Positions 260 through 55,384 of a DNA stretch of 64,000 bases are shown one piece after another. How positions within the stretch are numbered: position 1 is the first letter of the stretch; the number at the start of each line of letters is the position of its first letter. Below the pieces are notes generated by a model. That model searched no databases. It worked only from the letters and a program-made list of their open reading frames with translations, and was not told the DNA's origin. The position numbers were made by a program, and so were the translations under genes. The stretch comes from an uncultured SAR116 cluster alpha proteobacterium. GTDB lineage: Bacteria; Pseudomonadota; Alphaproteobacteria; Puniceispirillales; Marisalimonadaceae. The stretch covers positions 62,001-126,000 of the forward strand of contig CACNWE010000005.1 in assembly GCA_902623995.1 (NCBI GenBank), read 5' to 3'.

Positions 260-1579
260 TTAACTTTTTTCTAAGAAATTTGAAATTTCTTCTTGTGAAC
301 TTTTAAAATTATTATTTACCCAAAACTCTTCAGCTTGGAAAAATGCTTTTTCGACTTGATCAAATGTAAATTTTTTCTTTGATTTCATTATTTTTTCTCT
401 AACTAATGGAAATTTAGGCCAATTTATTTCAAACAAATCAATGTCTTTTATTTTTTCTAAGGGCAAAACATGTAATAAAGCAAGTTTATACCAATTAAAT
501 GGTATACGATCTTTATAGAATAATCCTTGTTTTTTTAAATTTAAACCACACCTAAGTTGCCAAATTAATTGAAAAATATATATATGTTTTTCTCTAAGTG
601 TTTGTATCTCCAAATTATTTTTAATTTTAATTTTTAAATTTATTATTTGTCTAATAAAATTTAAAAACTTAATTTTTCTTTTATTTAAATCAAACCTATT
701 AATTATTTTGTCAATACAATGTTCCCCATACAAATGGATCATTATCACAGAAATTAAATCTAATTTTTCGTTTTGAACCAAAGTTATTCCGTTTAATTTA
801 ATAAAATCAATTATTTCAAAGTTTTTTAGTACAAATCCAGTTGGTATCTCATATCTGTTATAATTATTTTTATTAATTAGAAGATATTTGTCTAAAGTTA
901 GTTTTTTCATCATTAAAAAACATTTATAACAACTCTTAGTTAATAAGATTTTATTGATCTCATCCCTAATTCTCTTGTTTGATAAATTAATGATTTTGGG
1001 AACTCTTAAAGTAATTTCTTTTTTGAGATTTTTTGATAATTTACTCTCAAAATTTCCAGAAAAACGACAAAATCTTACAATTCTTAAATAATCTTCTTCA
1101 ATTCTTTCTATTGGATTACCTATGAAGACAAGCTTTCTTTTAATTAGATCGTTTTCTCCATTAAGAAAATCAGTTAAATTTCCTTGAGAGTCTAAATACA
1201 AGCTATTAATAGTAAAATCTCTTCTTTTGACATCATCATTCAAACTAGCAGCAACATCAACTAGTGCAGATCTTCCATAAGAAATTAGATCCTTTCTGAA
1301 AGTAGTTATATGGTATTCTTTTTTATTGATTATAATTGATATAGTTTTATATCTTATATAATTGTCCTTAACAATAATGTTATTTTTAGTTATTTTTTTT
1401 GCAAATTTTTTTATATCTTCATTTATTACAAAATCAATGTCCGTTACTTTTTCATTAGTAAGGTAATCCCTTAAAGCCCCACCAACAATCCAAATTTTAA
1501 CACCAATACTGTCAGCTAAATTAAAAATAGCTTCAATATTCTGATCTATCTTAAAAAAATTTATAAACTTATTTTTTAT
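260..1579 (-). CDS. cca: CCA-adding tRNA nucleotidyltransferase with no canonical start codon
   Basis: Adds or repairs the 3' CCA end of tRNAs in the cytoplasm. The frame is open from 1597 down to 260. In order it shows IWIVGGALRDYL, the metal-binding pair in TDIDFV, TTFRKDL, then DDVKRRDFTINSLYLD and RIEEDYLRIVRFCRFSG, all class-II nucleotidyltransferase/poly(A) polymerase hallmarks. The first ATG, GTG or TTG codon in frame is the TTG at 1241-1243, which would remove the GG..RD and DxD catalytic motifs and so cannot be the true start. The coordinates assume ATA at 1577-1579 (439 aa), 7 nt after AGGTG at 1587-1591. The alternative is a one-base indel in the A6 run at 1571-1576, which would join the GTG at 1587-1589 to this frame. 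It follows the DUF6111 gene and precedes hemF. Confidence 0.85.
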   Translation of the reverse strand: MKNKFINFFKIDQNIEAIFNLADSIGVKIWIVGGALRDYLTNEKVTDIDFVINEDIKKFAKKITKNNIIVKDNYIRYKTISIIINKKEYHITTFRKDLISYGRSALVDVAASLNDDVKRRDFTINSLYLDSQGNLTDFLNGENDLIKRKLVFIGNPIERIEEDYLRIVRFCRFSGNFESKLSKNLKKEITLRVPKIINLSNKRIRDEINKILLTKSCYKCFLMMKKLTLDKYLLINKNNYNRYEIPTGFVLKNFEIIDFIKLNGITLVQNEKLDLISVIMIHLYGEHCIDKIINRFDLNKRKIKFLNFIRQIINLKIKIKNNLEIQTLREKHIYIFQLIWQLRCGLNLKKQGLFYKDRIPFNWYKLALLHVLPLEKIKDIDLFEINWPKFPLVREKIMKSKKKFTFDQVEKAFFQAEEFWVNNNFKSSQEEISNFLEKS

Positions 1580-1593
1580 ATTCGAACACCTGA

Positions 1594-1848
1594 TTACTTA
1601 GAAAAATTACCATCATTAACTTTTCCATCAATTATTGAGGGTGGTTGATAAGAGTAACTTGGATCAAAAGAATCTAATTCTAAATACATAAAACATAATA
1701 AAACAAAAACACAAAAACCTATAATACTTACTAATGCGGAGTAAAAAATTTGATTATTTTTTGTCAATTTATTTAAAATATATTTTGTTATGAAAAAAAG
1801 ACCTATAGAAAATATTATTGCTAAAAAAATAATTAAATATCGTCGCAC
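1594..1848 (-). CDS. DUF6111 family small membrane protein
   Basis: An 84-residue protein of unknown function. It has two hydrophobic helices (about residues 3-22 and 31-55) and a short C-terminal tail with a YQPPSIIDGKVNDG motif. That tail resembles the PP..DG.(I/V).G ending of DUF6111 proteins, which in alphaproteobacteria sit between a Nudix CoA pyrophosphatase and cca, exactly as here. I chose GTG at 1846-1848 because GGAG lies 8 nt upstream and the protein then begins MRRYLIIFL. A longer frame to 1914 would overlap the Nudix gene far more. The chosen start overlaps the Nudix stop by 16 nt, which suggests translational coupling. The family assignment is from memory of the motif and context. 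Confidence 0.7.
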   Translation of the reverse strand: MRRYLIIFLAIIFSIGLFFITKYILNKLTKNNQIFYSALVSIIGFCVFVLLCFMYLELDSFDPSYSYQPPSIIDGKVNDGNFSK

Positions 1849-2456
1849 GGTGGAAACTCCCTTAAACCTAAACCAGCAGATATAGTTACTAATACCCTTG
1901 CTGTTAACCCCCAAATATTTTTATTATTATAGTTAATTTTCCATGTCATGGACATGCTTGATTTAGTTGGAGGTTTTTCTCTTAAATGATATTTTGGTGA
2001 TAATAGATAATTAATAGGCGGGAAAAAAATTTGTTCCACCTCACTTAGATTTGGTTTTAACGCTTTTTTCCAATTTGAATCGGAATTAATAATACCAAGA
2101 AATGGTGTAACAACATAACCTGTCCCAGTAAAAAATTTTGGGAAACTTCCTATTATATTGTATTTCTCACTAGAAACATTTATTTCTTCTTCAGTTTCCC
2201 TTTTTGCTGTTTCTTCTAAATTTAAATCTTTTTTTTCTTTTTTCCCACCTGGGAAAGCTATTTGCCCTGCATGTTTTCTTAAATTATCTCTTCTCTTAAT
2301 CATTAAAATCGAACTATTTTTTTTGATTTCATCATTAATAAATAATACTAAAACACTTGCTTGATTATATTTATCATTTGATCGCTTTTTATCACCTGCA
2401 TTTCTAACTTTATTAATACATATTTCGAGATCAATTTTAGATACACTTTTTATCAT
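1833..2456 (-). CDS. Nudix hydrolase, CoA pyrophosphatase type
   Basis: Predicted to hydrolyse CoA or its thioesters to 3',5'-ADP and phosphopantetheine, limiting coenzyme turnover or oxidised CoA in the cytoplasm. The 207-residue protein carries the subfamily motif LRKHAGQIAFPGG, directly followed by the Nudix box, whose core EETAKRETEEEI supplies the metal-binding glutamates. The box has a few extra residues (KKEKKDLN) between the GG and the first E, a length variant often seen in this subfamily. Downstream, GTGYVVTPFLG also fits CoA pyrophosphatases. It is first in a minus-strand string with DUF6111, cca and hemF; the 76 nt to the divergent exporter gene must hold both promoters. Confidence 0.85.
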   Translation of the reverse strand: MIKSVSKIDLEICINKVRNAGDKKRSNDKYNQASVLVLFINDEIKKNSSILMIKRRDNLRKHAGQIAFPGGKKEKKDLNLEETAKRETEEEINVSSEKYNIIGSFPKFFTGTGYVVTPFLGIINSDSNWKKALKPNLSEVEQIFFPPINYLLSPKYHLREKPPTKSSMSMTWKINYNNKNIWGLTARVLVTISAGLGLREFPPCDDI

Positions 2457-2532
2457 ATTTTATGTTCAAATAATTATTTTTTAAATATTAATAATGTATT
2501 ATTATAATTTAAGAAACAATATTGAAAGTTTT

Positions 2533-3447
2533 ATGTATTTATATTTACCTATAGCAGAACAACCAATACATTCATTAGCAATTTTGGGTATTGGAGCTTT
2601 TCTTGGTCTTATAATGGGACTCGTTGGGGTAGGTGGTGGATTTCTTTTAACACCACTTATGATGTTTTTAGGTATACCACCCCCTGTGGCCGTAGCTTCT
2701 GTTGCGAACCAGTTGGTTGCGCCTTCAGTTTCAGGTGTTTTGTCTCATTGGAAAAGAAGTAATGTTGATTTTAAAATGGGCACAGTTTTACTACTTGGAG
2801 GTATTGTAGGTTCTTCAATAGGTGTCATCTTATTCAATTTTTTAGGTAAAATTGGACAATTAGACTTTGTGATCAAATCATCCTACATAATTTTTTTAAC
2901 TCTTATTGGAACCTTGATGTTTTCAGAGTCACTTAGATTAATCTTACGAACACGAAAAGGTAAAGTTACAAGAGGTAAGCTTCATCAGCATAATTGGCTT
3001 CACGGTTTACCTTTTAAGATTAGATTCAGGAAATCCAAATTATATATTTCAGTTTTATTACCTATTTTAATCGGGGTTGTAGTCGGTATCCTTGCTGCTT
3101 TGATGGGTATTGGTGGTGGTTTTATTATAGTACCAGCAATGATATATCTCTTAGGTATGCCAACATCTCTGGTAGTAGGCACATCTCTATTTCAAATCAT
3201 TTTTGTTGCCGCAAACACAACTATTTTACAAGCATCTCAAAATCAAACTGTTGATATAGTACTTGCAACAATATTATTGTTAGGTTCTGTGATAGGAGTC
3301 CAAATAGGCTCGAGGTTTACAAATATTTTAAAAGGCGAATATTTAAGGTTGATATTATCTTCTATAATTATTTTAGTAAGCTTAAAGCTTTTAATTGATT
3401 TAGTTACTATTCCTTCTGATCTTTTTTCAGTTATAATTAGTAGGTAA
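2533..3447 (+). CDS. TauE/SafE family membrane transporter (sulfite/organosulfonate exporter family)
   Basis: An inner-membrane protein with about eight helices and the two characteristic Gly-rich repeats, LVGVGGGFLLTPLMMFLGIPP near the N-terminus and LMGIGGGFIIVPAMIYLLGMP in the second half. Family members export small sulfur-containing or carboxylate anions; the substrate here is not known. I chose the ATG at 2533, not the ATG at 2494, because MYLYLPIAEQ matches the conserved M..YLPIAE opening of alphaproteobacterial relatives. Six nucleotides separate it from the TIGR02186 gene. TauE/SafE, TIGR02186 and a universal stress protein recur together in alphaproteobacteria, suggesting a joint role. 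Confidence 0.85.
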   Translation: MYLYLPIAEQPIHSLAILGIGAFLGLIMGLVGVGGGFLLTPLMMFLGIPPPVAVASVANQLVAPSVSGVLSHWKRSNVDFKMGTVLLLGGIVGSSIGVILFNFLGKIGQLDFVIKSSYIIFLTLIGTLMFSESLRLILRTRKGKVTRGKLHQHNWLHGLPFKIRFRKSKLYISVLLPILIGVVVGILAALMGIGGGFIIVPAMIYLLGMPTSLVVGTSLFQIIFVAANTTILQASQNQTVDIVLATILLLGSVIGVQIGSRFTNILKGEYLRLILSSIIILVSLKLLIDLVTIPSDLFSVIISR

Positions 3448-3453
3448 TCTCAA

Positions 3454-39674: not shown

Positions 39675-41048
39675 TAATCTATTAGACCCATTATCTGATG
39701 ATATTTTTAAAACATCAAAATTTTGATTATTTTCTATTTTAATCCAATCAATAGTACTTAATTGATCACATTTTGGGCAATGTAATTCCCAATTATTATT
39801 TTTATTACCACAGGAATAACAAAAATAATTAAATCCTTCTTTAGCGTTTGCAGCTTTTTCAAGATAATTCTTAACTACTTCAGGATTGTTTTGAGATCCA
39901 GCTATATCAGCCAACCCTTGATATGCTTTTGTTGTAAGTTTTTCCTCTGGAATATCTTTTAATAGTTTTTCAGCCTCTCCCCAAATTTCCTCTGAAATAG
40001 CGTAACATGCCACTTCTATTTTAAGATCATTGTTAATTTCTTGGGAAGATTTTTTATTCAAAAGATTAATCGCTTTTGAAACACGAGATCCTGGTGTTTT
40101 TAAATTCCATTTTTTTGATAGTTCTTCTAAAATATCTGGGTTGGCAGTTAACAGAAAAGTTTTTTCTAATTGATCGATTGACTTTGTCTTTGAACCAATA
40201 CCTCTAAGCAGGCCTGACAACTTTACAGAAACCCCAATATGACTTGGTTTTTGCTTAAAGGCTTCTTTTAAATGATTGGTAGCAAGATAACTTTTTTCAT
40301 CTTCTAAGTAATCTAATGCCATTAAGTAATTTAAATCCGCAGATATATTTTTGTATATATTATCTTCGATATAATTCAGTTTTTTTAATTTATTGAGATA
40401 TACAAGAGAATTTGAAATGTCTTTCAGCTTTGCATATGAAAATAATAAAACTTCTAGAATTTGTTTTGACTTAGGTTCAAATTTAAGAGCCTTTAGACCT
40501 TCATTAATAATTTCATTTAAATCTTTTTTATCAAATATTGCTTGTCTCATAAGTGCCAAATGACCAACAAATGCTGTAGATGGTTCATCAGTAAGCTGTT
40601 TAAAATAATTTTTTGATAATTTTTCATTTTCATTAGAGTTTTTATTTATTTTGTTAAAGACATTAATGTGTGTGTTTAATAATTTACCCAAGTTTTTATC
40701 CTTGGTATTCCTTGATACTAAAGCAGCTTCTTTTGCTGCAGTTTCTAATTCTCCATGACTTGCTAATAAAAATGCCTTTACTAATTTTTGTTCGACTTTT
40801 TTATTATTGTTAGCTTCAAATCGTCTTAATGTCGCTTTTGGCAAATTCAAAAAAGCTAGCCAAATTCTGTCAATAAAAATTAAAATTACAGAAAATAAAA
40901 TAATAATTAGAATAAACCTGTCTGTAGGTATTTGAATTCCCCACTCCATCCAATTTATAGATGTTACTCCTGGATCCTCAGAAAAGAACTCTGATAAATA
41001 CCATATGATGGAAATAAATATAATTAGTTTTAAGATTTTTAAAATCAC
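39654..41048 (-). CDS. hemY: HemY-like TPR membrane protein
   Basis: A 464-residue protein. Two N-terminal membrane helices (about 3-19 and 42-62) precede a TPR-rich cytoplasmic domain with LASHGELETAAKEAA and related repeats. It ends with a C-x2-C...C-x2-C zinc ribbon (FNYFCYSCGNKNNNWELHCPKCDQLSTIDW is the region; only its cysteines matter), as often in alphaproteobacterial HemY. HemY is genetically linked to heme synthesis but its reaction is not defined. It is 15 nt downstream of the mitofilin-family gene, in the hemC-hemD-mitofilin-hemY order that is conserved in this class. Confidence 0.85.
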   Translation of the reverse strand: MILKILKLIIFISIIWYLSEFFSEDPGVTSINWMEWGIQIPTDRFILIIILFSVILIFIDRIWLAFLNLPKATLRRFEANNNKKVEQKLVKAFLLASHGELETAAKEAALVSRNTKDKNLGKLLNTHINVFNKINKNSNENEKLSKNYFKQLTDEPSTAFVGHLALMRQAIFDKKDLNEIINEGLKALKFEPKSKQILEVLLFSYAKLKDISNSLVYLNKLKKLNYIEDNIYKNISADLNYLMALDYLEDEKSYLATNHLKEAFKQKPSHIGVSVKLSGLLRGIGSKTKSIDQLEKTFLLTANPDILEELSKKWNLKTPGSRVSKAINLLNKKSSQEINNDLKIEVACYAISEEIWGEAEKLLKDIPEEKLTTKAYQGLADIAGSQNNPEVVKNYLEKAANAKEGFNYFCYSCGNKNNNWELHCPKCDQLSTIDWIKIENNQNFDVLKISSDNGSNRLSNKILN

Positions 41049-41063
41049 TTATTCACTCTTTTT

Positions 41064-41921
41064 TTAATTTTGATTTAATGCTCTTTCAAACCTATTTATT
41101 GAGTCTTTTATAGTTTCTTTCCAATTCTCAGGAAGTGTCTTTATGATAGATAAAAAATTATTAAATTTTTTGTTTTCAAGTTCTTTTTCTGCCATTGTAA
41201 TTAATCCTCTAGGAGTGGTGTTGTCTGAAAACTTTCTAAGCTTTACAAAACCTGCAAAATAATTTTTCAATCTATTCAAATAGGTTTGTTCACTTAAAAC
41301 TTCCTCGTAATTGGAAGATGAACCAAAGTCTTTTTTTGAGAGAAGTTTCTCTATTATTATTTCGCCTTCTTTTATAAGTTCTTTTTGAGATTTCTCATTA
41401 TTTTGTGAAAACTTTATGAGTTCGTAAGAATTTTCAACTTGAACAGCATTATTATTTTGTTCTATTTCTTTATTTGCTGTTTTAGTTTTGTTTTCTAAAA
41501 TTTTAATTTTATTTGAGATTTTATCTAGCTCTTCTTTTATCATTAATAATGAATTACCTTGATTTTCAATTTCGAGATTTATTGTTTCGCTAGTATTGGA
41601 ATCAAGAGTATTAAGCTTATTTTTTAGTAATTTAATTTCTGTAATAATTTCATTAATTTTTAAATTTTCTTTACCTTTTAAAGCCTCAATCTCATTGTTT
41701 AGTTGAATGATTTTATTTGACTGTTGTTCAATATGATTTGGCAAATAATATACTGTTAACCAAATTAAAATTATAATAAACGAAAAGACGGTTATAAATG
41801 GTATTAAAAAAATAGGATTTTTTAAAATAATTGTTTTTTGTTTTTCATTTACTGGCTCCATATCGATGATTGTCTCTTTATCACTCTTAGCTTTATGAGT
41901 TTTGGCTTTTATCATCGTCAT
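41064..41921 (-). CDS. Mitofilin/Mic60-like membrane protein
   Basis: A 285-residue inner-membrane protein. One transmembrane helix (about 35-57, IFLIPFITVFSFIIILIWLTV) is followed by a long coiled coil (about 65-165, rich in E, K, N and L) and a short C-terminal domain with RLKNYFAGFVKLRKF and FNNFLSIIKTLPENWKETI. This layout and its place between hemD and hemY match alphaproteobacterial Mic60 homologues, which shape membranes and are the ancestors of the mitochondrial MICOS subunit. Family members usually have about 350-450 residues, so this one is short. The link is mainly by context and architecture. Confidence 0.75.
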   Translation of the reverse strand: MTMIKAKTHKAKSDKETIIDMEPVNEKQKTIILKNPIFLIPFITVFSFIIILIWLTVYYLPNHIEQQSNKIIQLNNEIEALKGKENLKINEIITEIKLLKNKLNTLDSNTSETINLEIENQGNSLLMIKEELDKISNKIKILENKTKTANKEIEQNNNAVQVENSYELIKFSQNNEKSQKELIKEGEIIIEKLLSKKDFGSSSNYEEVLSEQTYLNRLKNYFAGFVKLRKFSDNTTPRGLITMAEKELENKKFNNFLSIIKTLPENWKETIKDSINRFERALNQN

Positions 41922-41932
41922 GTCCCTGTTGA

Positions 41933-42682
41933 CTAAGGTAATTTAATTATATTATCTAAAAATTCTTTAGTAAAATTTTTCTTGATAATTTTTATATTTT
42001 TCCAACCTAAACTCTCTGCTTTTTTAGCAACATTTTCACTATTAACATATAAAGTTGCTTTATTTTTAACAATGTTGAATAAATTGTAATTTTCTAAAAT
42101 TTGTTTTGTAATTGATACATTTCTTGACGAAAATAAGACTAAATTTAAGAAATCATATTCAATTAAATCCGTTTGCAAAGGTTTTGGTAATTCTAAAATT
42201 GGATGGGTGCTATAACCTTCGATAATTTCTATTTTTCTGTTGTTATTTAATAAATTTTTTTCAAATTCAATACTTCTATTTTTAGCAGCAATCCATAAAC
42301 CATAATCTTCCTTTTTAGTGTTAATTACAATTAAGTTATGTAGAGATTGAGAATTATTATTTGCTTGTAAAATATTAGTATAAGATAATTTTTTCAATTG
42401 ATATGTGGTTTCAAATCCTACAGAAAAAATTCTTATATCTTTATTGAAATTGCCTATTGTTTCTAAAATTATCTTTTCAAGAATTTTTAATGCTTTAGGA
42501 CTTGTTATAATAATATAATTAAAATCATTTTTAGAAATATTTAAGCTTTTAAAATGTTCATATTTTAATGTTGTTATAGGAAACGGTTTTGAAAAAAAAC
42601 CATTATCATTTAGATATTGTGAATTCCTTTCAGCGTCTTTTTTCTCTCGAAGTACAAAAGTTATTGTTTTTGATTTTTTAAT
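41933..42682 (-). CDS. hemD: Uroporphyrinogen-III synthase with no canonical start codon
   Basis: Cyclises hydroxymethylbilane to uroporphyrinogen III, the next step after HemC. The frame is open from 42685 to 41933. Its N-terminal part reads TFVLREKKDAERNSQYLND and FPITTL, then YIIITSPKAL and RIFSVGFETT, the U3S pattern of domain 1, so the true protein begins near 42682. The first canonical codon in frame is TTG at 42397, which would discard about 95 residues. The best start is ATT at 42680-42682, 7 nt after a perfect AAGGAG (42690-42695), giving 249 aa, normal for HemD. Alternative: the ATG at 42684-42686 is one frame off and stops at once (ATG GAT TAA), so a single-base indel would rescue it. 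It lies 24 nt after hemC. Confidence 0.85.
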   Translation of the reverse strand: MKKSKTITFVLREKKDAERNSQYLNDNGFFSKPFPITTLKYEHFKSLNISKNDFNYIIITSPKALKILEKIILETIGNFNKDIRIFSVGFETTYQLKKLSYTNILQANNNSQSLHNLIVINTKKEDYGLWIAAKNRSIEFEKNLLNNNRKIEIIEGYSTHPILELPKPLQTDLIEYDFLNLVLFSSRNVSITKQILENYNLFNIVKNKATLYVNSENVAKKAESLGWKNIKIIKKNFTKEFLDNIIKLP

Positions 42683-42706
42683 CCATCAACTCCTTGTTTA
42701 ATGAAG

Positions 42707-43621
42707 TTATTTAAATAAAAAGTCACCGTTAGTTTGAGCTTTAATTTCATTTCCTAACTCTTTACCTAACTGAATTGCGTTTTTAATCGATCCTTTAATT
42801 TTAGATTTAATTACTTTCTTACCATCTAAAGTTGCAATTGCTCCATACAATATCAATTCTTTACTATCAGTAAAATATGCGCTTGCTGAAATTGGAGATC
42901 TACAAGATCCATCTAAAGTTTTTAATAGACTTCTTTCAGCTAAAGTTTCAAAAAAAGCCCTTTCATCGTTAATTTTATTTAAAAGCATCTTTAATTGTTT
43001 TTGATATTCACTATTACCATTTATAGTAGATTGAATTGCAATAACCCCTTGAGAAGATGCTGGAGGAATAATTTCATTTGGAATTATGTTACCAACGTTA
43101 ATACTTAACCTATCCAAACCTGCTTTGGCTAATATAATTGCATCATACAATCCAGAGTTTAGCTTTTCAATTCGAGTTTCAACATTACCTCTCAGAAACT
43201 TTATGATTAAATCAGGTCTATAATATTTAGCAAAAGCAGCTCTTCTTACAGAACTTGTTCCCACAATTGCTTTATCTGGCAAATTATCGAATGAATCATA
43301 ATTTCCTAACAAGACATCACTTCTATCACCTCTTGGAAGAACAGCTGAGATTTCAGTATTTTTTGCAATATCTGTTTCCATATCTTTCATTGAGTGAACA
43401 GCAATGTCTGCAAATCCATTTAAAATAAAATACTCTAATTCCTTAATAAAAAGACCTTTACCTCCAATGTCAGATAAAGATTTATCTAAAATTTTGTCCC
43501 CTGATGTAGTAACTTTGATAGTTTCAGTTTGAACATCTTCTCCAAAATAACTTTTAACAATATCGACTTGTCGTAAAGCGAGTTCTGATTTTCGAGTAGC
43601 AATTCTTATTTTAAGTGTCAT
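42707..43621 (-). CDS. hemC: Hydroxymethylbilane synthase (porphobilinogen deaminase)
   Basis: Polymerises four porphobilinogens into hydroxymethylbilane in the cytoplasm. The 304-residue protein opens KIRIATRKSELALRQ and has GDKILDKSLSDIGGKGLFIKELE, SMKDMET, VGTSSVRRAAF and RGNVETRIEKL (substrate and cofactor arginines and lysines). The dipyrromethane-binding Cys is in LDGSCRSPISA. Length is normal. It is the first gene of the minus-strand hem operon; 158 nt separate it from divergent tsaD, where both promoters must lie. Confidence 0.97.
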   Translation of the reverse strand: MTLKIRIATRKSELALRQVDIVKSYFGEDVQTETIKVTTSGDKILDKSLSDIGGKGLFIKELEYFILNGFADIAVHSMKDMETDIAKNTEISAVLPRGDRSDVLLGNYDSFDNLPDKAIVGTSSVRRAAFAKYYRPDLIIKFLRGNVETRIEKLNSGLYDAIILAKAGLDRLSINVGNIIPNEIIPPASSQGVIAIQSTINGNSEYQKQLKMLLNKINDERAFFETLAERSLLKTLDGSCRSPISASAYFTDSKELILYGAIATLDGKKVIKSKIKGSIKNAIQLGKELGNEIKAQTNGDFLFK

Positions 43622-43779
43622 TTTAATTTATTAATCTTTTATATTATCAAGTTATTTATTAATTCTTGAATATTTCTATACACTTATAGTAAATCGTAAA
43701 ACATACAATATTAATTTATATTGCATTACTTAGTTTTAAATTTAATTTATAGTATAATTTTAATTTACTTAGGAATTTT

Positions 43780-44874
43780 ATGCGTGGTTCTAATGACATA
43801 AAGATACTTGGTATTGAAACAAGTTGTGATGATACAGCAATTGGCGTAGTTACTTCAAAAAAAGATATTTTATCTAATGTTGTAATCAATCAGGACTCAA
43901 ATTTAAATAATTATGGTGGCGTTGTGCCTGAAATAGCAGCTAGAGACCATCTATCTAACTTAGATCAAGCAATTAATAGAGCATTAGATGAATCAAAGCT
44001 AGATTTAAAAGAAATTGACTTAATTGCAGCTACGGGAGGACCAGGATTAATTGGTGGCGTAATTGTAGGTACTGTATTTGCTAAATCTTTAGCTATGTCT
44101 CTTAAAAAACCTTACGTTGCTGTAAATCATTTAGAAGGACATGCATTAACCGCCCGTTTAACAGATAATATTGAATATCCTTATCTTCTGCTTTTAGTTT
44201 CTGGAGGACATACTCAAATAATAGCTGTAATAGAATATGGGAAATATACCAGAATAAGTTCGACCTTAGACGATGCAGCTGGAGAAACTTTTGATAAAGC
44301 TGCAAAAATACTTGGCATAGGTTTTCCAGGTGGACCCATGATAGAAAAAATGTCTAAAGATGGAGATCCAACGAGTTTTAATTTACCAAGACCAATGCAT
44401 AAATCTAATAATCCAAATTTCTCTTTTTCAGGTCTCAAAACAGCTTTTAATCAGATAGCAATGAAAAACAAATTAAACAACAAAATAATAAGTGATTTGT
44501 CAGCAAGCATTCAAAAATCTATAACTGATTGTTTAATTGATAGAACTAGATTAGGAATTAAAAAATTTAAGGATATTCTTGGTAAAATGTCTAATATTCA
44601 ACTTGTAGTTTCAGGTGGAGTTGCTGCAAATTTACATATAAGAGAAGAACTAAAAAAACTATGTTTAGAAACAGATAGCACTTTTTTTGCGCCTCCATTA
44701 AATTTATGCACAGATAATGGAGCAATGATAGCATGGGCAGGCTTCGAAAAATATAATAATGAAGGTGAAAGTAATTTAAATTTTAAGCCAAGACCAAGGT
44801 GGCCATTAGATCCCAATGCACATTTAATAAACCCTATACATCAAAATATTGGGAAAAGTGGAGCAAAAGCGTAA
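43780..44874 (+). CDS. tsaD: tRNA N6-adenosine threonylcarbamoyltransferase
   Basis: Transfers threonylcarbamoyl to A37 of ANN-decoding tRNAs as part of the TsaBDE complex in the cytoplasm. ILGIETSCDDTAIGVV, GVVPEIAARDHLSNL, VNHLEGHALTARL (metal-binding His pair) and LLLVSGGHTQI are all present, followed by DDAAGETFDKAAKILG and FSFSGLKTAF. The catalytic GGVAAN is in LVVSGGVAANLHIR. The C-terminal DNGAMIAWAG completes the metal site. At 364 residues it is full-length. It is one base from gpsA, so the two are co-transcribed. The hem and tsaD genes diverge here as in other alphaproteobacteria. Confidence 0.97.
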   Translation: MRGSNDIKILGIETSCDDTAIGVVTSKKDILSNVVINQDSNLNNYGGVVPEIAARDHLSNLDQAINRALDESKLDLKEIDLIAATGGPGLIGGVIVGTVFAKSLAMSLKKPYVAVNHLEGHALTARLTDNIEYPYLLLLVSGGHTQIIAVIEYGKYTRISSTLDDAAGETFDKAAKILGIGFPGGPMIEKMSKDGDPTSFNLPRPMHKSNNPNFSFSGLKTAFNQIAMKNKLNNKIISDLSASIQKSITDCLIDRTRLGIKKFKDILGKMSNIQLVVSGGVAANLHIREELKKLCLETDSTFFAPPLNLCTDNGAMIAWAGFEKYNNEGESNLNFKPRPRWPLDPNAHLINPIHQNIGKSGAKA

Positions 44875-45858
44875 ATGTCAATTTATTCAAATATATGTTT
44901 TTATGGAGGCGGCGCATGGGGGCAAGCATTAGCAATTACACTTTCCACGTTAAATCATAATTCTACTATATTAGTATCCGATAAAAGACGAGAAACACAA
45001 ATAAATAATTGTAAATCAGAGAGATTCCCTAATTTAAAATTAAGTCCTTTAATACAATCTACCACAAATAAAGAAAAAGCCATAAAAGGTAGTGATTTAA
45101 TTTTTATTACCACAGAAAGCAATAGAGTTTTAATGGCTATCGAAGAAATCTCATCTTTTTCTAAAAACAAAATAAATGTAATTGTTACTTCAAAAGGTTT
45201 TGCAACAAAAAAAGGTGAAACTTTTAATAAAATTGTAGCAAATAGATTTCATAACATATCACTTTCTATACTAACCGGACCCACTTTTGCTGATGAGATT
45301 GCTAAAAACAAGCCAGCAGCTGCGATAGTGGCTAATAAAGATATTGATGCAGCCACTTCTATTTGCGAATTATTTCACAATTCCAATTTAAGACTTTATC
45401 CTAGTAATGATCCAAGTGGGGCATCTATTGCAGGTGCAATAAAAAATATAATTGCTATTGGTGCTGGTATTGTTGAAGGTTTAGAATTAGGTGATAATGC
45501 TAAAGCTGCGCTTATTACTAGAGGTATTTCGGAAACATGCGAATTAATTAAAAAATCAGGTGGGGATCACGCAACCGCCTTTGGTCTTGCTGGAATTGGA
45601 GATATGAGCCTAACATGTAGTGGGCCGCATTCTAGAAATATGGCATATGGGATTAATTTAATAAAAAATAATTTTCAGCGTCCTACTCGTCTAGTAGAAG
45701 GTTTAAACGCTCTAGATGCTGCCATTTCTTTGTCCAAAGAACTTAATGTAGAGCTACCAATCGTGGACGCAATTTATAAAATAATAAACAAAAAATCAGA
45801 TATCAAAGACATTATAAAAAACTTACTTGCCAGACCAATTAAAAATGAATTCTCATAA
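44875..45858 (+). CDS. gpsA: Glycerol-3-phosphate dehydrogenase [NAD(P)+]
   Basis: Reduces dihydroxyacetone phosphate to sn-glycerol 3-phosphate for phospholipid synthesis. CFYGGGAWGQALAITLS is the dinucleotide site, ILTGPTFADEIAKNKPAAA the family GPxxAxE motif, IAGAIKNIIAIGAGIVEGL contains the catalytic Lys and GLAGIGDMSLTCSGPHSRN follows. Length (327) is normal. It begins immediately after tsaD. It ends 22 nt from the convergent LABN gene; an 8-bp inverted repeat (AATTCTCA and TGAGAATT) frames that gap but is too loose and lacks a T-run. Confidence 0.96.
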   Translation: MSIYSNICFYGGGAWGQALAITLSTLNHNSTILVSDKRRETQINNCKSERFPNLKLSPLIQSTTNKEKAIKGSDLIFITTESNRVLMAIEEISSFSKNKINVIVTSKGFATKKGETFNKIVANRFHNISLSILTGPTFADEIAKNKPAAAIVANKDIDAATSICELFHNSNLRLYPSNDPSGASIAGAIKNIIAIGAGIVEGLELGDNAKAALITRGISETCELIKKSGGDHATAFGLAGIGDMSLTCSGPHSRNMAYGINLIKNNFQRPTRLVEGLNALDAAISLSKELNVELPIVDAIYKIINKKSDIKDIIKNLLARPIKNEFS

Positions 45859-45880
45859 ATCTAGCCTCAAGATTAATATA

Positions 45881-46273
45881 CTAAAAAGTTCTTTGAGAAT
45901 TATTTCCTAGTTTTTTTTCTCTATGTATAAAATATAAATTCCTAGCGTATATAAATACACCAACCGACTGTCCAGCAATTATAACTGGATCTTGTCTCCA
46001 AATTGCATAAGTTAATAAAACCAGTCCACCTGAAATTGAAAAATACCAAAAAGCTATGGGTATAACTGACTTACCTGCATTTTCACTGCTTATCCATTGT
46101 ATGATAAAACGTGTTGCAAATAATGCCTGCCCTCCAAAACCTATAGTAATCATAATTGCTTCTGGGTGATCTAATAAATAAGGCTCCATAAATGGTAGAA
46201 TAACGATTATAAACTCATTTAAAAAAATTGCACCTTTTTCTATCTGGGTTGATAAGAATGATATAAAATTCAT
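45881..46273 (-). CDS. Lipid A biosynthesis N-terminal domain (LABN) protein
   Basis: A 130-residue inner-membrane protein with about three helices. GFGGQALFATRFIIQWISSENAGKSVIPIAFWYFSISGGLVLLTYAIWRQDPVIIAGQSVG-type content is the LABN domain pattern: FxxRFxxQWxxSE, followed by PxxFWxxSxxGxxxLLxYxxxRxDPVxIxGQ, all of which are present. The domain occurs beside Und-P-sugar glycosyltransferases and is thought to help handle lipid-linked sugar. It is the third gene of the GT39, GT2, LABN minus-strand trio, 13 nt after the GT2 gene. Confidence 0.85.
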   Translation of the reverse strand: MNFISFLSTQIEKGAIFLNEFIIVILPFMEPYLLDHPEAIMITIGFGGQALFATRFIIQWISSENAGKSVIPIAFWYFSISGGLVLLTYAIWRQDPVIIAGQSVGVFIYARNLYFIHREKKLGNNSQRTF

Positions 46274-46286
46274 TACAAATTCCTAA

Positions 46287-47018
46287 TTATTTTAAAATCT
46301 CTCTAAAGGAAGTATTTTTTGGCATTCTATTTCTAAGCCAGATTACACCTAGCACATCAAAAAGGCCAACTAGGAATCTTCCTAAATTAGTATAATTTGA
46401 AGTTCCTACTACTCTTTCTCTATGATTAACATTAAATTTTAACACCTTGGCTCCTTCACGTAAGGCTAAAGCTGATAAAAATCTATGCATATGGTCAAAA
46501 TAAGGAAGCCTTAAAAATAACTCTTTATGAAATACTTTTATTCCACAACCTGAATCAGGGTGAGTGTCCTTAAGCAAAATAAATCTACAATATTTTGCAA
46601 AAGATGATGCCCATAACCTTGTAATACTATCCTTACGATTTACTCTAACTCCGCCAATTAATATTAACTCATCTTTACAGCTCTTGAGTGTGTCAATCAT
46701 TTTAGGAAGATCTGATGGATCATTTTGACCGTCTCCATCCAAAGTTGCTATTAGTATTGAATTTGATGCTTTAATACCTGTCCTTAAAGCTGCAGATTGA
46801 CCTTGACTGTTTTCATGACTAATAACCCTTAACTTTTTGTTATTTTTCATATTATTTTTCAATTCTAATTCAGTATTATCTACTGAGCCGTCATTTACGT
46901 ATATTATTTCATAACTAAACTTTTTTAATGCCTGATGAATTTCACTTACTAAAGTATCAATATTTCCTGCTTCATTTTTAACAGGAATAACTACAGATAT
47001 TTCGGTTGTTTTGGACAT
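46287..47018 (-). CDS. Glycosyltransferase family 2, dolichyl/undecaprenyl-phosphate sugar synthase-like
   Basis: A GT-A glycosyltransferase of 243 residues. EISVVIPVKNEAGNIDTLV starts the fold, EIIYVNDGSVDNTE is the nucleotide-binding strand, LIATLDGDGQNDPSDLPKM contains the DxD-like metal motif, and SGCGIKVFHKELF plus VNHRERVVGTSNY (acceptor side) match DPM1/ArnC-type enzymes. There are no C-terminal membrane helices, so it is probably membrane-associated. I chose the ATG at 47018 because MSKTTEISVVIP fits the family; an earlier ATG at 47054 adds unrelated residues. It would make an undecaprenyl-phosphate sugar for the adjacent GT39. Confidence 0.87.
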   Translation of the reverse strand: MSKTTEISVVIPVKNEAGNIDTLVSEIHQALKKFSYEIIYVNDGSVDNTELELKNNMKNNKKLRVISHENSQGQSAALRTGIKASNSILIATLDGDGQNDPSDLPKMIDTLKSCKDELILIGGVRVNRKDSITRLWASSFAKYCRFILLKDTHPDSGCGIKVFHKELFLRLPYFDHMHRFLSALALREGAKVLKFNVNHRERVVGTSNYTNLGRFLVGLFDVLGVIWLRNRMPKNTSFREILK

Positions 47019-47062
47019 GTTTAGTATTGCAATAATTGAATGTATAGAAATCAATAGCTATT

Positions 47063-48790
47063 TTAATTAGTCAGGTCAAACAATTGATTTTGAAAAATGT
47101 ATATTTCTACATGTCTACCTTTAGCTATATTGAAACCTTTTACTATAAATATTTCATTTATTTTCAAATTAAGATCATTTGTTGTTTCTAAGAATAGTTT
47201 TAGATCATTTTTTTCTATTAACGCTACATTGTTTTTACCCTCTGCCATAAAAATAGCAGCTTCATGAGGATTAGATAGTAAAACATTACCATTTAATAAA
47301 AAAACAAGACTTGGTTCACTATAGCCTGAAGACACAACCGCATCAGCCTTAGCTTTTTTTAATTTCTTTATGATAGCCTTACTTGGATGTAAATAATCTA
47401 ATTCAGGTAAAACAAAATTGTAGTTAATTATATTAAAAATTGATCCAAGAGCAATGATTGCAAATAAGATATTGTAAAAACTTTTACTAATATCTAGGTA
47501 TAAAGTTTTGAAATTAAAAATCAAAGTATGTGACAAAATAAAAATAACAATCGCAATTAAGACAAGCAACATTGTAAAAAATGTTAAAATATAATCGTTT
47601 TCAATATTAAACTTAGAAGAAATATAAAAAATTCCTCCACTTAAAATAATTCCTCCAAAGCTAAATAAAATAGAAGAGACATAGGTAATTTTACGAAGTA
47701 ATACACTATTTATTTTTTTGATATTAGATTTAAACTGCAATAGCCCACCTATTGATAGAATTGCAATTGCTGGCAGAACTGGAAGTGGATAATGAAGAAG
47801 TTTTGTTGGAATTAATTCGATAATACCCCAAAATGGTAATATCCAACACATTAAAAATTTTATAATTATATTAGTTTTATTTTGTAAAATAAATAAAATC
47901 AAGCAAGGTAAAAAAGTGGCTATAGGCCATATTGAAATTGATAATGTTAATAAATGAGTTCCTGGCATTGCACCATGTCCCTCTTGACCACTCTCCAATT
48001 TACTAAAAAAATCTTCTTGAAAAGCTTTTTGTAAAAACATACTGTTTGTTGCTTCATCAATCGCCAAAAACCATGGCAGAATAACTAAAGTACATATTAA
48101 AAAACCTAACATGGGTCTTAAAGATTTTATCAGACTTATAGATTTCTGAATTATGGAAAAGGCAATGACTGTAGGAAATAGTATAGCTATTGAAACAGGA
48201 CCTTTTACCAAAACTCCAAAAGAAAAAGCTAGCCATACTAATATTGGGTAAAGGTATTTTACTTTGAAAGTATTGTCTTGATCCAAAATTATTTTGAGTA
48301 AAAAATATTGCTGAACACAGATTAAACACAAAAGAGTAGCATCAGTTTTGGCAAGGTGGGCTTCTCCCATAAATACAATTGATGATGCAAATAATAATGT
48401 TACGATAAGGGTCTGATAAAGAGGAAAAATCAACCTAGTTATTAAACCAACAAAAACTAGTGTTATAATAGAGCTTAATAAAGATGGTATTCTATACGAA
48501 CCAATATCTTCCTGACCAAATATTTTTGCCGAAAACGCTTGAAGCCAATAAATGCCAATTGGTTTCTTGGCTCTAATTTCGTCTTGAAATTTAATATTTA
48601 CATAATCACCAGTCTGAATCATTTGACTGCTAGCTTGAGCAAAACGGGCTTCATCCCGATCTATAGGAGGTATTGAGTATTGCCCAGAGAAAAGAGCTAA
48701 AATTATTAAAATAATCAAGGAACCAAAAATTAAATAATTCAATTTTTTTAATTTTTTAAAAAATGCTGAAAATTCTAAAATACTATTCAT
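47063..48790 (-). CDS. ArnT-like membrane glycosyltransferase (GT39/PMT family)
   Basis: A 575-residue polytopic inner-membrane protein with roughly 11-12 helices. The first periplasmic loop carries IPPIDRDEARFAQASSQMIQTGDYVNIKFQDEIRAKKPIGIYW, with the catalytic RDEARFA motif typical of ArnT-type enzymes, and the YRIPSLLSS segment follows. These enzymes move a sugar from a polyprenyl phosphate donor to lipid A or another acceptor on the outer face. Together with the GT2 and LABN genes downstream (44 and 13 nt) it forms a lipid A or polysaccharide modification set. The sugar is unknown. Confidence 0.88.
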   Translation of the reverse strand: MNSILEFSAFFKKLKKLNYLIFGSLIILIILALFSGQYSIPPIDRDEARFAQASSQMIQTGDYVNIKFQDEIRAKKPIGIYWLQAFSAKIFGQEDIGSYRIPSLLSSIITLVFVGLITRLIFPLYQTLIVTLLFASSIVFMGEAHLAKTDATLLCLICVQQYFLLKIILDQDNTFKVKYLYPILVWLAFSFGVLVKGPVSIAILFPTVIAFSIIQKSISLIKSLRPMLGFLICTLVILPWFLAIDEATNSMFLQKAFQEDFFSKLESGQEGHGAMPGTHLLTLSISIWPIATFLPCLILFILQNKTNIIIKFLMCWILPFWGIIELIPTKLLHYPLPVLPAIAILSIGGLLQFKSNIKKINSVLLRKITYVSSILFSFGGIILSGGIFYISSKFNIENDYILTFFTMLLVLIAIVIFILSHTLIFNFKTLYLDISKSFYNILFAIIALGSIFNIINYNFVLPELDYLHPSKAIIKKLKKAKADAVVSSGYSEPSLVFLLNGNVLLSNPHEAAIFMAEGKNNVALIEKNDLKLFLETTNDLNLKINEIFIVKGFNIAKGRHVEIYIFQNQLFDLTN

Positions 48791-51177: not shown

Positions 51178-51711
51178 CTATGGCAAGGCTACAGGACTAT
51201 CGCTTTTTGTTCTTAACCAAGCAATTAGATCAGCTCTATCTTTTGTTTTTGATAAACCTGCATAATTCATTTTAGTGCCTTTATAAAATAGTTTTGGTTT
51301 ATACAAAAATTTATTCAGCTCTTCGTAAGTCCATTTACCAGATAATGTTGCAAGTGTTTTAGAATATGCATAGTCAGCTTTACCTTGTTCTTTGTTAACG
51401 ATATTATACAGGTTAGGCCCAACTTTGTTTGCACCTCCAGCCTCAAATCCATGACAAGCAGTGCATTTTTTAGAAATTTTCTGACCACTATCTATGTCTG
51501 CATTGGCTAAAAGAGCAAGTATAGGTTCAACAACTATTTCTTTAGTTTCTTTTAATTTTGTTTCAGCTTTTTCTGGAACTTCGATTGGGTATGCGTTTGA
51601 GACTTCCGTATTTGGATTAACAAGTAAATTGCCAATTTTTCCAAAAACCATTATCAACAAAACACCTGATAATAAAGCTGCTGCTATCTTGTTAAATCTC
51701 AATGCATCCAT
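51178..51711 (-). CDS. Membrane-anchored c-type cytochrome (CycM-like)
   Basis: A 177-residue protein. An uncleaved N-terminal helix (about residues 10-26) anchors it in the inner membrane, followed by an acidic, proline-rich linker and one class I cytochrome c domain. The heme site is CTACH (83-87) with KVGPNLYNIV and the axial Met in FYKGTKMNYAGLS. Length and motif spacing match CycM/cytochrome c552 of rhizobia, which can pass electrons from the bc1 complex to a terminal oxidase. It is divergent from kdsB, and cycM-kdsB-pheA neighbours recur in alphaproteobacteria. Confidence 0.9.
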   Translation of the reverse strand: MDALRFNKIAAALLSGVLLIMVFGKIGNLLVNPNTEVSNAYPIEVPEKAETKLKETKEIVVEPILALLANADIDSGQKISKKCTACHGFEAGGANKVGPNLYNIVNKEQGKADYAYSKTLATLSGKWTYEELNKFLYKPKLFYKGTKMNYAGLSKTKDRADLIAWLRTKSDSPVALP

Positions 51712-51852
51712 AAATTAACCCACAAAAAAAATTCCAATAAATAATTATTTACATGCAAGAAATGCTTTCTTCAAGTATAAAAGTCAAAAAGGGTAATAAA
51801 TTATTTCCAAGAAACTTTAAATATTATTATAGATGATTCATGGAGCCTAAAA

Positions 51853-52611: not shown

Positions 52612-52654
52612 TTATTCATATAATAAATTAAGTCAAACAAAATAGAGATAAAAA

Positions 52655-53503
52655 ATGAATGATAAAAGTAAACTTATAATTGCTTTTCAAGGTATGGCTG
52701 GCGCATATTCAAATATGGCATGTGAAGCTTATTTTCCTAGCTCTAAAACTCTAGCATGTAATTCATTTGAAGACATGCTTAACTCCACTAAAAATGGTGA
52801 ATCAGATTATGCAATGGTCCCTGTTGAAAATTCTTTGGCTGGAAGAGTGGCAGATATTCATCATTTAATACCAGAAAGTGGTTTATTTATTGTTGGCGAA
52901 CATTTTCAAAGAGTGAATCATCAATTACTTGGACTTAAAACTTCCAAAATAGAGGATTTGAAATATGTTAAAAGTCATGCACAAGGACTTGCTCAATGTA
53001 GAAAATTTATAAAAAAACATAACCTAATACCAATACAACATATAGATACTGCTGGAGCAGCGGAAGAAGTTTCAAAGTTAGAAGATCCTAAAATCGCTGC
53101 AATTGCGTCAAATATGGCAGCAAAAATCTATGACTTACAAATATTGAAAAATAATATTGAAGATGCAGAACATAATACAACTAGATTTTTGATAATGGCT
53201 AGAGATCCCCAGACACCATCTGTAGACATACCAATTCCTGTGACTACTATAATTTTTGAAGTTAGATCTGTTCCTGCTGCATTATATAAAGTATTAGGTG
53301 GATTTGCTACTAACGGAATAAATCTTACTAAACTTGAAAGCTATATTGGTGGTAAGGAGATGAACGCAGCAAGATTTTATGTTGATGCAGAAGGTCATCC
53401 TGATACAAAACCTATGCAAAACGCTCTTGAAGAGATGTATTTCTATAGCGAACCTAATTCAGTTAAAATTATTGGAACTTACTCTAGAGCAAAGAAAAAC
53501 TAA
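52655..53503 (+). CDS. pheA: Prephenate dehydratase
   Basis: Decarboxylates and dehydrates prephenate to phenylpyruvate in phenylalanine synthesis. The 282-residue monofunctional protein has no chorismate mutase domain. IAFQGMAGAYSNMAC opens the PDT domain, VPVENSLAGRVADIHHLI and VKSHAQGLAQCRKFI are the conserved active-site segments, and NTTRFLIMAR includes the T-R-F motif. The C-terminal ACT domain (PAALYKVLGGFATNGINLTKLES) is the phenylalanine-sensing part. It is 43 nt downstream of kdsB on the same strand and 54 nt upstream of the SRP RNA gene. Confidence 0.95.
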   Translation: MNDKSKLIIAFQGMAGAYSNMACEAYFPSSKTLACNSFEDMLNSTKNGESDYAMVPVENSLAGRVADIHHLIPESGLFIVGEHFQRVNHQLLGLKTSKIEDLKYVKSHAQGLAQCRKFIKKHNLIPIQHIDTAGAAEEVSKLEDPKIAAIASNMAAKIYDLQILKNNIEDAEHNTTRFLIMARDPQTPSVDIPIPVTTIIFEVRSVPAALYKVLGGFATNGINLTKLESYIGGKEMNAARFYVDAEGHPDTKPMQNALEEMYFYSEPNSVKIIGTYSRAKKN

Positions 53504-53557
53504 TTCAAAAGCACAGAAATTCTTGCATATTATAACTATTTATAACATATATATTTG

Positions 53558-53650
53558 TGAAGGGTCACACGGACGTAATTCTTGCCAATCCGGTCAGGTC
53601 CGAAAGGAAGCAGCCGTAACAATGATAGCGGGTTGTGAGGCCCTTCGTTT
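53558..53650 (+). ncRNA. ffs: Signal recognition particle 4.5S RNA (small bacterial type)
   Basis: The RNA scaffold of the signal recognition particle, binding Ffh and guiding ribosomes to the membrane. The universally conserved apical hairpin is present as CAGGTCCGAAAGGAAGCAGC at 53595-53614, with the GAAA-type tetraloop and the symmetric A/G internal loop region. The 5' GAAGGGTC (53559-53566) pairs with 3' GGCCCTTC (53639-53646) to close the molecule, giving about 93 nt. A gttt tail follows. Exact ends are estimated. It precedes dnaX directly, a common alphaproteobacterial neighbour pair. Confidence 0.93.
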
Positions 53651-53683
53651 TACTGATTATAAACGAGATATCAAATAAATAAT

Positions 53684-55384
53684 ATTAATGAACAAAGCAA
53701 TTATAGAGTTTTAGCTCGTAAATATAGACCAAATGATTTTAGTGAATTAATTGGACAAGACACACTAGTCAAAACTTTTAATAACGCTCTTAACAAAGGC
53801 AGATTAGCTCACGCATTTCTCTTAACTGGGATAAGAGGTGTTGGGAAAACTACCACAGCAAGAATAATAGCTAAAGCCTTAAATTGTATCGGCGATGGCA
53901 GTAAAGAGGATCCCTCTTTTGAAATTTGTAATAATTGTTCACCGTGCAAATCCATAAATAATGGAAATTTTCTTGATGTCATTGAGGTTGATGCCGCTAG
54001 TAGAACTGGTGTTGATGGCATAAGAGAAATAATTGACTCTGTTATATATTCACCAAATAATGCAAGATACAAGGTTTACATTATTGATGAAGTTCATATG
54101 TTGTCTAACGCAGCATTTAATGCTCTTTTAAAAACCTTAGAAGAACCTCCACAAAATGTTAAATTCATTTTTGCAACAACTGAAATAAAAAAAATACCAG
54201 CAACAATAATTTCAAGATGTCAAAAATTTGATCTTCAAAAAGTTGATTTAAAAACATTATCAAATCATTTAAAAAACATTTGTCAAAATGAAAGTATTTC
54301 TTATGAGAATGATTCTATCTCACATATTTGTAAAGCAAGTGAAGGATCTGTAAGAGATGCTTTATCGTTACTAGATCAAGCAGCATCTCTATGTGGCGAC
54401 GACATTAAGGAACAAACAGTCTTAAATATGCTTGGATTAAATGGTTATGAAAAAAACATTGAATTGTTTGAACTATGTTTATCAAATCAATGTAGCGAAG
54501 CTTTAAAAGTTTATGATGATATTTTACAAAATGGTGTGCAACCACTTCAAATCATATCAAATCTTTTGGAAATAAGTCATTTAGCATCAAAAATTAATGT
54601 TATTGAATCAGACACTAATATGACTGAGTCGATCCAGAAAAAAATTTCTGAAATTTCTGCAAATGGGTTACCAAAACTTGTAAGATTATGGCAAATTTTA
54701 ATTAAAAGTTTTGAAGAATTAAAATATGCTCCTAATGAGGAACAAGCTGGTTCAATGGCAATAATAAAATTATGTTATGGGTCATCACTTCCAGATCCAA
54801 GTCAATTTTTAGAAAAAATATCAGAGCAAACAAATACTCAATCAGAGAATAAACAAACTAAAGTTTCTGAGAATACAGACTCTAAAGAAAATATAACAAA
54901 TTATAAAGAAGAGAAATCAGAAAATGATCAAATTAGAGTTTCTGAGGCATCATATTCTCAAGACAAGTTAAACAAAGAAGTTATAGTTAATAATGAAGAA
55001 AAATCAGAAAATTTCAAAAATCCTGAATCTTTTGAAGATATGTTAGATTTACTTTTAAAAAACAAAGAGGCTCTGCTCCATGCTCAATTGATCAATAATG
55101 TTCATTTAATATCTTTTGAAGAAAGTAGTATAAAGCTAAGGTTAAAATTAAAATCTGATACAGAAATTCTAAGAAACTTATCTTCCACTTTAGAAAAAAT
55201 AACAAAAAATAAATGGAATGTTACCCATTCTGAGGAAGATGGAGAAAAAACTATAGTTGAAAAACAAAATATTAAATTGAATGAGCAGAAAGAACAAATA
55301 AAAGCAAATCCTCATTTTGCAGAAGTATTTAAACATTTTCCTCAGGCTGAGATAACTTCAATTGAAGATAAAAAATCAAATTAA
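53684..55384 (+). CDS. dnaX: DNA polymerase III gamma/tau subunit with no canonical start codon
   Basis: The clamp-loader ATPase of the replisome. The frame is open from 53663; YRVLARKYRPNDFSELIGQ, Walker A GIRGVGKTTTAR (49-60), zinc cysteines C68, C82, C85, C88, YIIDEVHML and TIISRCQKFD are all intact. The first ATG in frame is at 54098, inside the ATPase domain after the DE motif, so it cannot be the start. Candidates are ATT at 53684 (used here; begins (M)NEQSNYRVLA, 566 aa) or ATA at 53675, 6 nt after GAGA. An out-of-frame ATG at 53688 would join the frame if one A were added to the A3 run at 53694. The tau tail (about 280-460) is polar, Glu/Lys/Asn-rich and divergent. Confidence 0.88.
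   Translation: MNEQSNYRVLARKYRPNDFSELIGQDTLVKTFNNALNKGRLAHAFLLTGIRGVGKTTTARIIAKALNCIGDGSKEDPSFEICNNCSPCKSINNGNFLDVIEVDAASRTGVDGIREIIDSVIYSPNNARYKVYIIDEVHMLSNAAFNALLKTLEEPPQNVKFIFATTEIKKIPATIISRCQKFDLQKVDLKTLSNHLKNICQNESISYENDSISHICKASEGSVRDALSLLDQAASLCGDDIKEQTVLNMLGLNGYEKNIELFELCLSNQCSEALKVYDDILQNGVQPLQIISNLLEISHLASKINVIESDTNMTESIQKKISEISANGLPKLVRLWQILIKSFEELKYAPNEEQAGSMAIIKLCYGSSLPDPSQFLEKISEQTNTQSENKQTKVSENTDSKENITNYKEEKSENDQIRVSEASYSQDKLNKEVIVNNEEKSENFKNPESFEDMLDLLLKNKEALLHAQLINNVHLISFEESSIKLRLKLKSDTEILRNLSSTLEKITKNKWNVTHSEEDGEKTIVEKQNIKLNEQKEQIKANPHFAEVFKHFPQAEITSIEDKKSN

Follow-up and report, generated by a model that had tools for sequence, protein, structure and literature searches.

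How is a core gene translated if its open reading frame holds no ATG, GTG or TTG ahead of the region that encodes its conserved N-terminus? This question is raised by three genes, a cca-like gene, hemD and dnaX, which are situated in a 64,000 nt stretch of DNA of an uncultured SAR116 cluster alphaproteobacterium (hereafter the window; G000:C5:62001-126000). The window has a GC content of 31%, and the corresponding genome, which is incomplete, comprises 2.08 Mb in 48 contigs. G numbers denote genomes and L numbers the loci read, with G000 as the window's own genome; ATG, GTG and TTG are referred to as canonical codons, and AUA, AUU and AUC as AUH (ATH in DNA). The sister genus is represented by G064 and G065, another family by G044, and G022 is a relative that was used for pairwise comparison. 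Judging from the completeness values, most of the relatives' genomes, single-cell data aside, are probably metagenome bins. Initiation at AUH codons is strongly supported for all three genes by the comparison of related sequences. We consider it likely that they are intact genes with weak AUH starts, which are discriminated by initiation factor IF3 and kept weak by selection.

The three genes were read as follows (window coordinates):

260-1579, minus strand: cca-like gene (tRNA nucleotidyltransferase / poly(A) polymerase family), read from ATA; frame and domain matches
41933-42682, minus strand: hemD (uroporphyrinogen-III synthase family), read from ATT; frame and family profile matches
53675-55384, plus strand: dnaX (DNA polymerase III gamma/tau), read from ATA; NF006585, 655 bits versus a cut-off of 604

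From stop to stop, the frames span 260-1597 (minus strand), 41933-42685 (minus strand) and 53663-55384 (plus strand), and they are devoid of canonical codons until a TTG at codon 118 of cca, a TTG at codon 96 of hemD and an ATG at codon 145 of dnaX. An earlier note, made from the window's sequence alone, had described these frames as lacking an ATG, GTG or TTG start and had stated that beginning at the first canonical codon would remove the catalytic motifs or most of domain 1; the observation is confirmed. The family matches begin ahead of that codon in all three cases, namely at residue 35 for PolyA_pol (Pfam) in cca, at residue 49 for HEM4 (Pfam) in hemD, and at residues 14 and 32 for dnaX_nterm (NCBIfam) and the DnaX domains, respectively, in dnaX. 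In the window, no canonical codon is able to encode the conserved N-terminus of any of these proteins; among the relatives, exceptions occur. Both cca and hemD score above the Pfam cut-offs and below the curated NCBIfam equivalog cut-offs, and due to this their names are given at family level only. Since PF01743 was found only once in the G000 genome, namely in the cca gene, this gene presumably encodes the CCA-adding enzyme.

The proposed start codons and the motifs preceding them are given below:

1577-1579, minus strand: proposed cca start ATA; aligned column ATA or ATT in 29 of 29 genus loci
1589-1591, minus strand: AGG, Shine-Dalgarno-like, 9 nt before the cca ATA
42680-42682, minus strand: proposed hemD start ATT; ATT in the column of 24 of 30 loci
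42690-42695, minus strand: AAGGAG, Shine-Dalgarno motif, 7 nt before the hemD ATT
53675-53677, plus strand: proposed dnaX start ATA; ATH column in 27 of 27 family loci
53665-53667, plus strand: GAG, weak Shine-Dalgarno-like motif, 7 nt before the dnaX ATA

For dnaX, 61 genomes were searched and 55 matched; 30 loci were cut out, comprising 25 of the genus (the window's included) and five of other families, and the 25 genus loci together with two sister-genus loci constitute the 27 family loci. The proposed start column is occupied by ATA (23 loci), ATC (2) and ATT (2), the latter codon being found in the sister genus (G064 and G065), and never by ATG. The distance from GAG to the start is 7 nt in 26 of the 27 loci and 6 nt in the remaining one, and in L025 an in-frame TAA immediately precedes the ATA. 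As an alternative start, the ATT at 53684-53686 was rejected, being found in 24 of 27 loci, versus an ATH codon in 27 of 27 at the proposed column, with the GAG 16 nt off. All five loci from other families possess in-frame canonical codons. A wider background was obtained from the best 80 of 593 candidates among genome contigs, of which 79 were anchored: an in-frame canonical codon is present in 78 of these, and the only one lacking it comes from a SAR116 single-cell genome whose leader is the same. Within the same best 80 of 593, among which records of G000 itself may be missing, the closest dnaX of a named record belongs to the SAR116 single-cell genome AG-915-E09 (86% identity).

In case of cca, 29 of the 40 genus genomes searched matched; the 5' ends of all 29 loci, among them that of the window, were read. 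The proposed column contains ATA in 10 and ATT in 19 loci, without any ATG, and an in-frame stop is located one codon before it in 18 of the 29. The preceding codon is also ATA or ATT in 25 of the 29 loci, where either of the pair could be used; only the second codon fits in the window and in L037, L054 and L058. In both sister-genus genomes a TAA is immediately followed by an ATT, which aligns one codon upstream of the proposed column. The ATA at 1562-1564 was rejected as a start, since its column holds ATA in only 7 and ATC in 2 of the 29 genus loci. Beyond the genus, 12 genomes were searched and 11 matched, two of them of the sister genus; an upstream canonical codon is present in all nine cca loci from other families.

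For hemD, 29 of 40 genus genomes matched and 28 loci reach the 5' end, which together with two sister-genus loci gives 30; the match in G045 was too weak for anchoring. The arrangement of AAGGAG, 7 nt and ATT occurs in 19 close loci, including the window's own. An in-frame stop lies immediately before the ATT in four loci (L080-L083), in which AAGGAG is followed by the stop codon with the ATT directly after it, and one codon intervenes between stop and ATT in 17 further loci. In L084 the ATT is accompanied by an in-frame upstream ATG, and a GTG, ATG or TTG lies at or close to the start in L085-L088 and the two loci of the sister genus. By this comparison the AUH start of hemD appears to be kept less strictly than those of dnaX and cca.

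AUA/AUU initiation as suggested in the earlier note thus has good support from its conservation within the genus and, in the case of dnaX and cca, in the sister genus too. The note's choice of start codon stands for hemD, together with a Shine-Dalgarno motif exactly 7 nt away, whereas the starts of cca and dnaX had probably been misplaced. For cca, the note's lower coordinate, 1562, agrees with the ATA at 1562-1564, but the ATA at 1577-1579 fits better, with AGG 9 nt and not 7 nt before it; for dnaX, 53675-53677 is now favoured.

According to quick protein trees, the start columns of dnaX and cca have each undergone at least three changes, all within ATA, ATT and ATC. G-ending codons occur at fully conserved K/E/Q columns of both genes (25 of 38 in dnaX, 27 loci; 6 of 7 in cca, 28 loci), and hence third bases elsewhere in these genes can become G. 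There is moderate support that AUG is avoided at both start columns, and the case is strengthened by infC (see below). With respect to the Shine-Dalgarno context, AGGAG precedes three of the five AUH genes scored (hemD, infC and pccB, where the motif is strong) versus 55 of 751 ATG genes, and it occurs in 0.4% of shuffled upstream sequence.

Further genes share this type of start. The gene encoding IF3 itself, infC, begins with ATA behind GGAG in 27 of 27 genus loci, G000's own included, and AUG is absent from its start column across the genus. Across the order, 22 further infC loci were cut out and 13 anchored, all of which have ATA behind GGAG; in L207, L215 and L218 a stop immediately precedes this ATA. 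For pccB, 26 near full-length orthologues were found in 40 genomes, and the four that were read start with ATT, ATC, ATT and ATT. The remaining case is

L248 7524-10103 (G000:C6:47524-50103), minus strand: clpB-like gene, first 52 codons without ATG, GTG or TTG

and in its G022 orthologue the first 100 codons are free of canonical codons. The stretch directly 3' of the clpB-like gene reads as N (L247-L248, G000:C6 about 39748-47508). In G022, two additional genes show apparent AUH starts, an ATT after AGGAG (G022:C4:44974-46596) and an ATA after GGAG (G022:C1:48069-48935), which we take from their sequences to encode a SulP-type transporter and a nitrilase-type protein, respectively. A canonical codon lies close to the 5' end of the latter's G000 relative, and in one comparison no relative of the SulP-type gene was found in the G000 gene set.

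The frequency of such starts was assessed by a codon-usage scan, which called genes and flagged coding-like prefixes of at least 12 codons without a canonical start. In 1.235 Mb of G000 comprising 1122 genes, 25 candidates were flagged. Six were judged to be supported by homology (dnaX, cca, hemD, infC, pccB and the clpB-like gene); the 19 others comprise spurious, masked and undecided cases, and the undecided ones include a 5-formyltetrahydrofolate cyclo-ligase gene. The scan of G022 yielded 11 candidates in 748 genes, including dnaX, cca and the clpB-like gene; hemD remained unflagged due to the TTG in G022 hemD. Elsewhere, none of 160 genes in G042 and one of 183 in G044, an unclear case, were flagged. 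In 100 kb of E. coli K-12 (73 genes), infC was flagged strongly and the next candidate was weak; pcnB (L361 27730-29127) was missed because of an in-frame TTG seven codons upstream of its ATT. Scans for missing canonical codons therefore undercount the AUH class, and the G000 count is a lower bound. Furthermore, 290 gene pairs of G000 and G022 were compared, covering 836 kb and 800 kb, respectively; the G022 contigs C1 and C10 by themselves give little coverage of other G000 contigs. Homology extends at least six codons ahead of the first canonical codon in both members of 29 pairs, and all of these except cca, hemD and dnaX were judged to be short extensions before ATG, GTG or TTG. With six supported cases in 1122 genes as a lower bound, AUH starts are not common across the genome, and it is in part a matter of chance that three of these genes fall within the same 64 kb.

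Base-call or assembly indels near the 5' ends could have severed the link to an out-of-frame ATG or GTG, and a codon of this kind is indeed close by at each of the three genes:

1587-1589, minus strand: out-of-frame GTG near cca; not seen there in the other genus loci printed
42684-42686, minus strand: out-of-frame ATG near hemD; absent in L071, L076, L077 and L080-L083
53688-53690, plus strand: out-of-frame ATG near dnaX; missing or immediately closed in several relatives

The same layout, however, is shared by 24 to 29 loci of each gene; these come from different genomes, including a single-cell one (L281), and these decoy codons are missing or closed by a stop in several relatives. The one near dnaX runs straight into a stop (ATG AAA TAA) in L015-L017 and L025, and its site is without ATG in L013, L020, L022-L024 and L026. 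The earlier note had named an extra or missing base in relatives as the observation that would overturn AUH initiation; it was looked for and is absent in the loci read. Single-species exceptions aside, relatives do not carry an in-frame canonical start where the window lacks one. The probability of such an artefact is practically negligible. Initiation elsewhere combined with recoding, i.e., a frameshift from an out-of-frame ATG, read-through of a stop or use of another near-cognate codon such as the ACG of dnaX, is very improbable. Of the 27 dnaX leaders, 24 carry this ACG in frame, and in L012 it corresponds to ATG; it was rejected as the start, since a stop separates it from the ATA in L025 and ACG is missing from L022 and L024. 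Moreover, the decoy frames of dnaX close at once in the four loci mentioned above, and the preceding stop varies in identity and distance.

A third explanation, a lineage-wide relaxation of start selection in which an altered IF3 or initiator tRNA makes AUH a general start, had been raised in the earlier note with respect to IF3. It draws on the fact that more AUH genes are found here than the two textbook cases of E. coli, and on the anticodon stem of the G022 initiator tRNA, which is AGG/CCT; the textbook stem is GGG/CCC. This tRNA has a CAU anticodon, and its first 50 bases are identical to those of G044, in which dnaX and cca nevertheless hold canonical codons. A special initiator tRNA as the cause of the AUH starts was rejected, as the pattern search of G000 gave no hit and an initiator tRNA was seen just in G022 and G044. 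IF3 aligns to E. coli IF3 (8jsg_A, whose start agrees with the E. coli infC sequence) over residues 14-177 with one single-residue gap. The AUH class is rare in G000, and the extended G000-G022 pairs other than cca, hemD and dnaX were judged to be short extensions; a lineage-wide relaxation is thus not supported, and we regard it as quite improbable. Six AUH genes in 1122, a non-AUG infC in 27 of 27 genus loci and the lack of AUG in the dnaX, cca and infC columns would fit an IF3 discrimination that still works. Finally, AUH starts may be real and merely tolerated, being fixed by drift or rescued by coupling to upstream translation, without regulation by IF3. The end of hemC 24 nt before the hemD ATT, the end of the frame upstream of cca 14 nt before the cca ATA and the alternation of the hemD start with TTG, GTG and ATG are in agreement with this explanation. 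Against it, the changes counted remain within ATH, infC has ATA in all genus loci, and dnaX is preceded by an RNA gene, so that no coupling to upstream translation would be expected for it:

53556-53652, plus strand: small bacterial signal recognition particle (SRP) RNA, directly upstream of dnaX; Rfam RF00169, 53.3 bits

On balance we consider mere tolerance unlikely. An inverted repeat (CGTTTT...AAACG, window 53648-53665) connects the SRP RNA, at its 3' end, with the leader of dnaX and is present in many of the relatives printed as well; the dnaX ATA is therefore located just behind a possible hairpin.

Several observations weigh against weak AUH starts that are maintained by selection. In dnaX, a canonical codon lies between the preceding stop and the anchor in 5 of 27 loci: an in-frame ATG four codons upstream of the ATA in L012, an upstream TTG in L026, and distant upstream codons in L024, L233 and L234. 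Since the ACG four codons upstream and the ATT three codons downstream are nearly as conserved (24 of 27 each), the ATA at 53675-53677 is the favoured, not the proven, start of dnaX in this alignment. Six of the 29 genus cca loci contain an in-frame ATG approximately nine codons downstream, at which translation could begin instead, and in the sister genus L219 has one further in. In hemD, 7 of 30 loci have a TTG, GTG or ATG at the start or immediately upstream of it, and a TTG is found eight codons downstream of the ATT in L080-L083. For infC, a TTG upstream of the Shine-Dalgarno motif occurs in 4 of 27 loci of the genus; of the 13 anchored loci of the order, 11 have a canonical codon between stop and anchor and two do not. 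The ribosome-binding context is uneven: AGG is the sole Shine-Dalgarno-like motif of the window's cca, dnaX has nothing beyond GAG, and none was seen by eye for the clpB-like gene. The initiator tRNA of G000 itself was not found by the pattern search of this incomplete genome. On its own, the absence of AUG from two varying columns is modest evidence.

Weak starts read by ordinary machinery are the simplest account. The AUA of cca, the AUU of hemD and the AUA of dnaX would be decoded by the ordinary CAU initiator tRNA, and the mismatched third base would render them weak and open to rejection by IF3. As described in PMC10158994, IF3 disfavours start codons whose third base pairs weakly with the anticodon, and infC is autoregulated via its own non-canonical start (PMC5472188). 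By analogy, we infer IF3 control of the three starts; expression would be low and would track the IF3-to-ribosome ratio, as for infC. The small set of weak starts under selection would comprise infC, cca and dnaX, joined in part by hemD, pccB and the clpB-like gene.

AUH starts as such are known, and dnaX, cca, hemD, pccB and the clpB-like gene appear to be further members of this class. Both infC and pcnB of E. coli were seen in sequence with an ATT start. Binns and Masters (2002) reportedly described the AUU start of pcnB, which encodes poly(A) polymerase I. Similar to pcnB, cca belongs to the nucleotidyltransferase superfamily and has an AUH start; unlike pcnB, it is the sole PF01743 gene found in its genome and starts with AUA or AUU. 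According to PMC13009471 and PMC5472188, infC starts with AUU in E. coli, AUA in S. aureus and ATC in Streptomyces. Like these, infC of G000 has an AUH start (ATA) behind a strong Shine-Dalgarno motif; autoregulation by IF3 was shown there and would apply here by inference, and here other core genes join the class. According to PMC5472188, Streptomyces sigR has a GTC start that is experimentally shown to be IF3-repressed, a strong ribosome-binding site and a misannotated database entry. The genus-wide non-canonical start is common to both systems, whereas sigR encodes a regulator and the AUH starts described here concern housekeeping genes and are supported by sequence comparison. AUH starts are likewise present in S. 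aureus ccpN (AUA), cvfC1 (AUU) and citZ (AUA), where, according to PMC13009471, AUA/AUU reporters reached about 10% of the expression from AUG in poor medium and, for one gene, as much as 30% in rich medium. These are other genes in another phylum, and the extended Shine-Dalgarno motifs reported for them (PMC13009471) are only partly found here.

Among the titles and abstract beginnings listed in searches of the open PubMed Central (PMC) literature, no report of AUH starts in dnaX, hemD or cca and none on start codons in SAR116 was found. As a tentative possibility, this marine family may possess a small IF3-gated set of genes that share the AUH start of infC and serve clamp loading in replication (dnaX), synthesis of tRNA 3' ends (cca) and heme formation (hemD) or encode a carboxylase (pccB) and a disaggregase-like protein (clpB). 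Their output would follow the ratio of free IF3 to 30S subunits, by which replication and the maturation of tRNA would be tied to the supply of ribosomes. Starts at AUH are known for few bacterial genes, and such genes are truncated by gene finders that accept ATG, GTG and TTG alone; the N-termini of core proteins of marine genomes may be wrong in databases. A genus with AUH starts on dnaX, cca and infC, immediately preceded by a stop codon in several species, represents a natural test set for a wider coordination by IF3.

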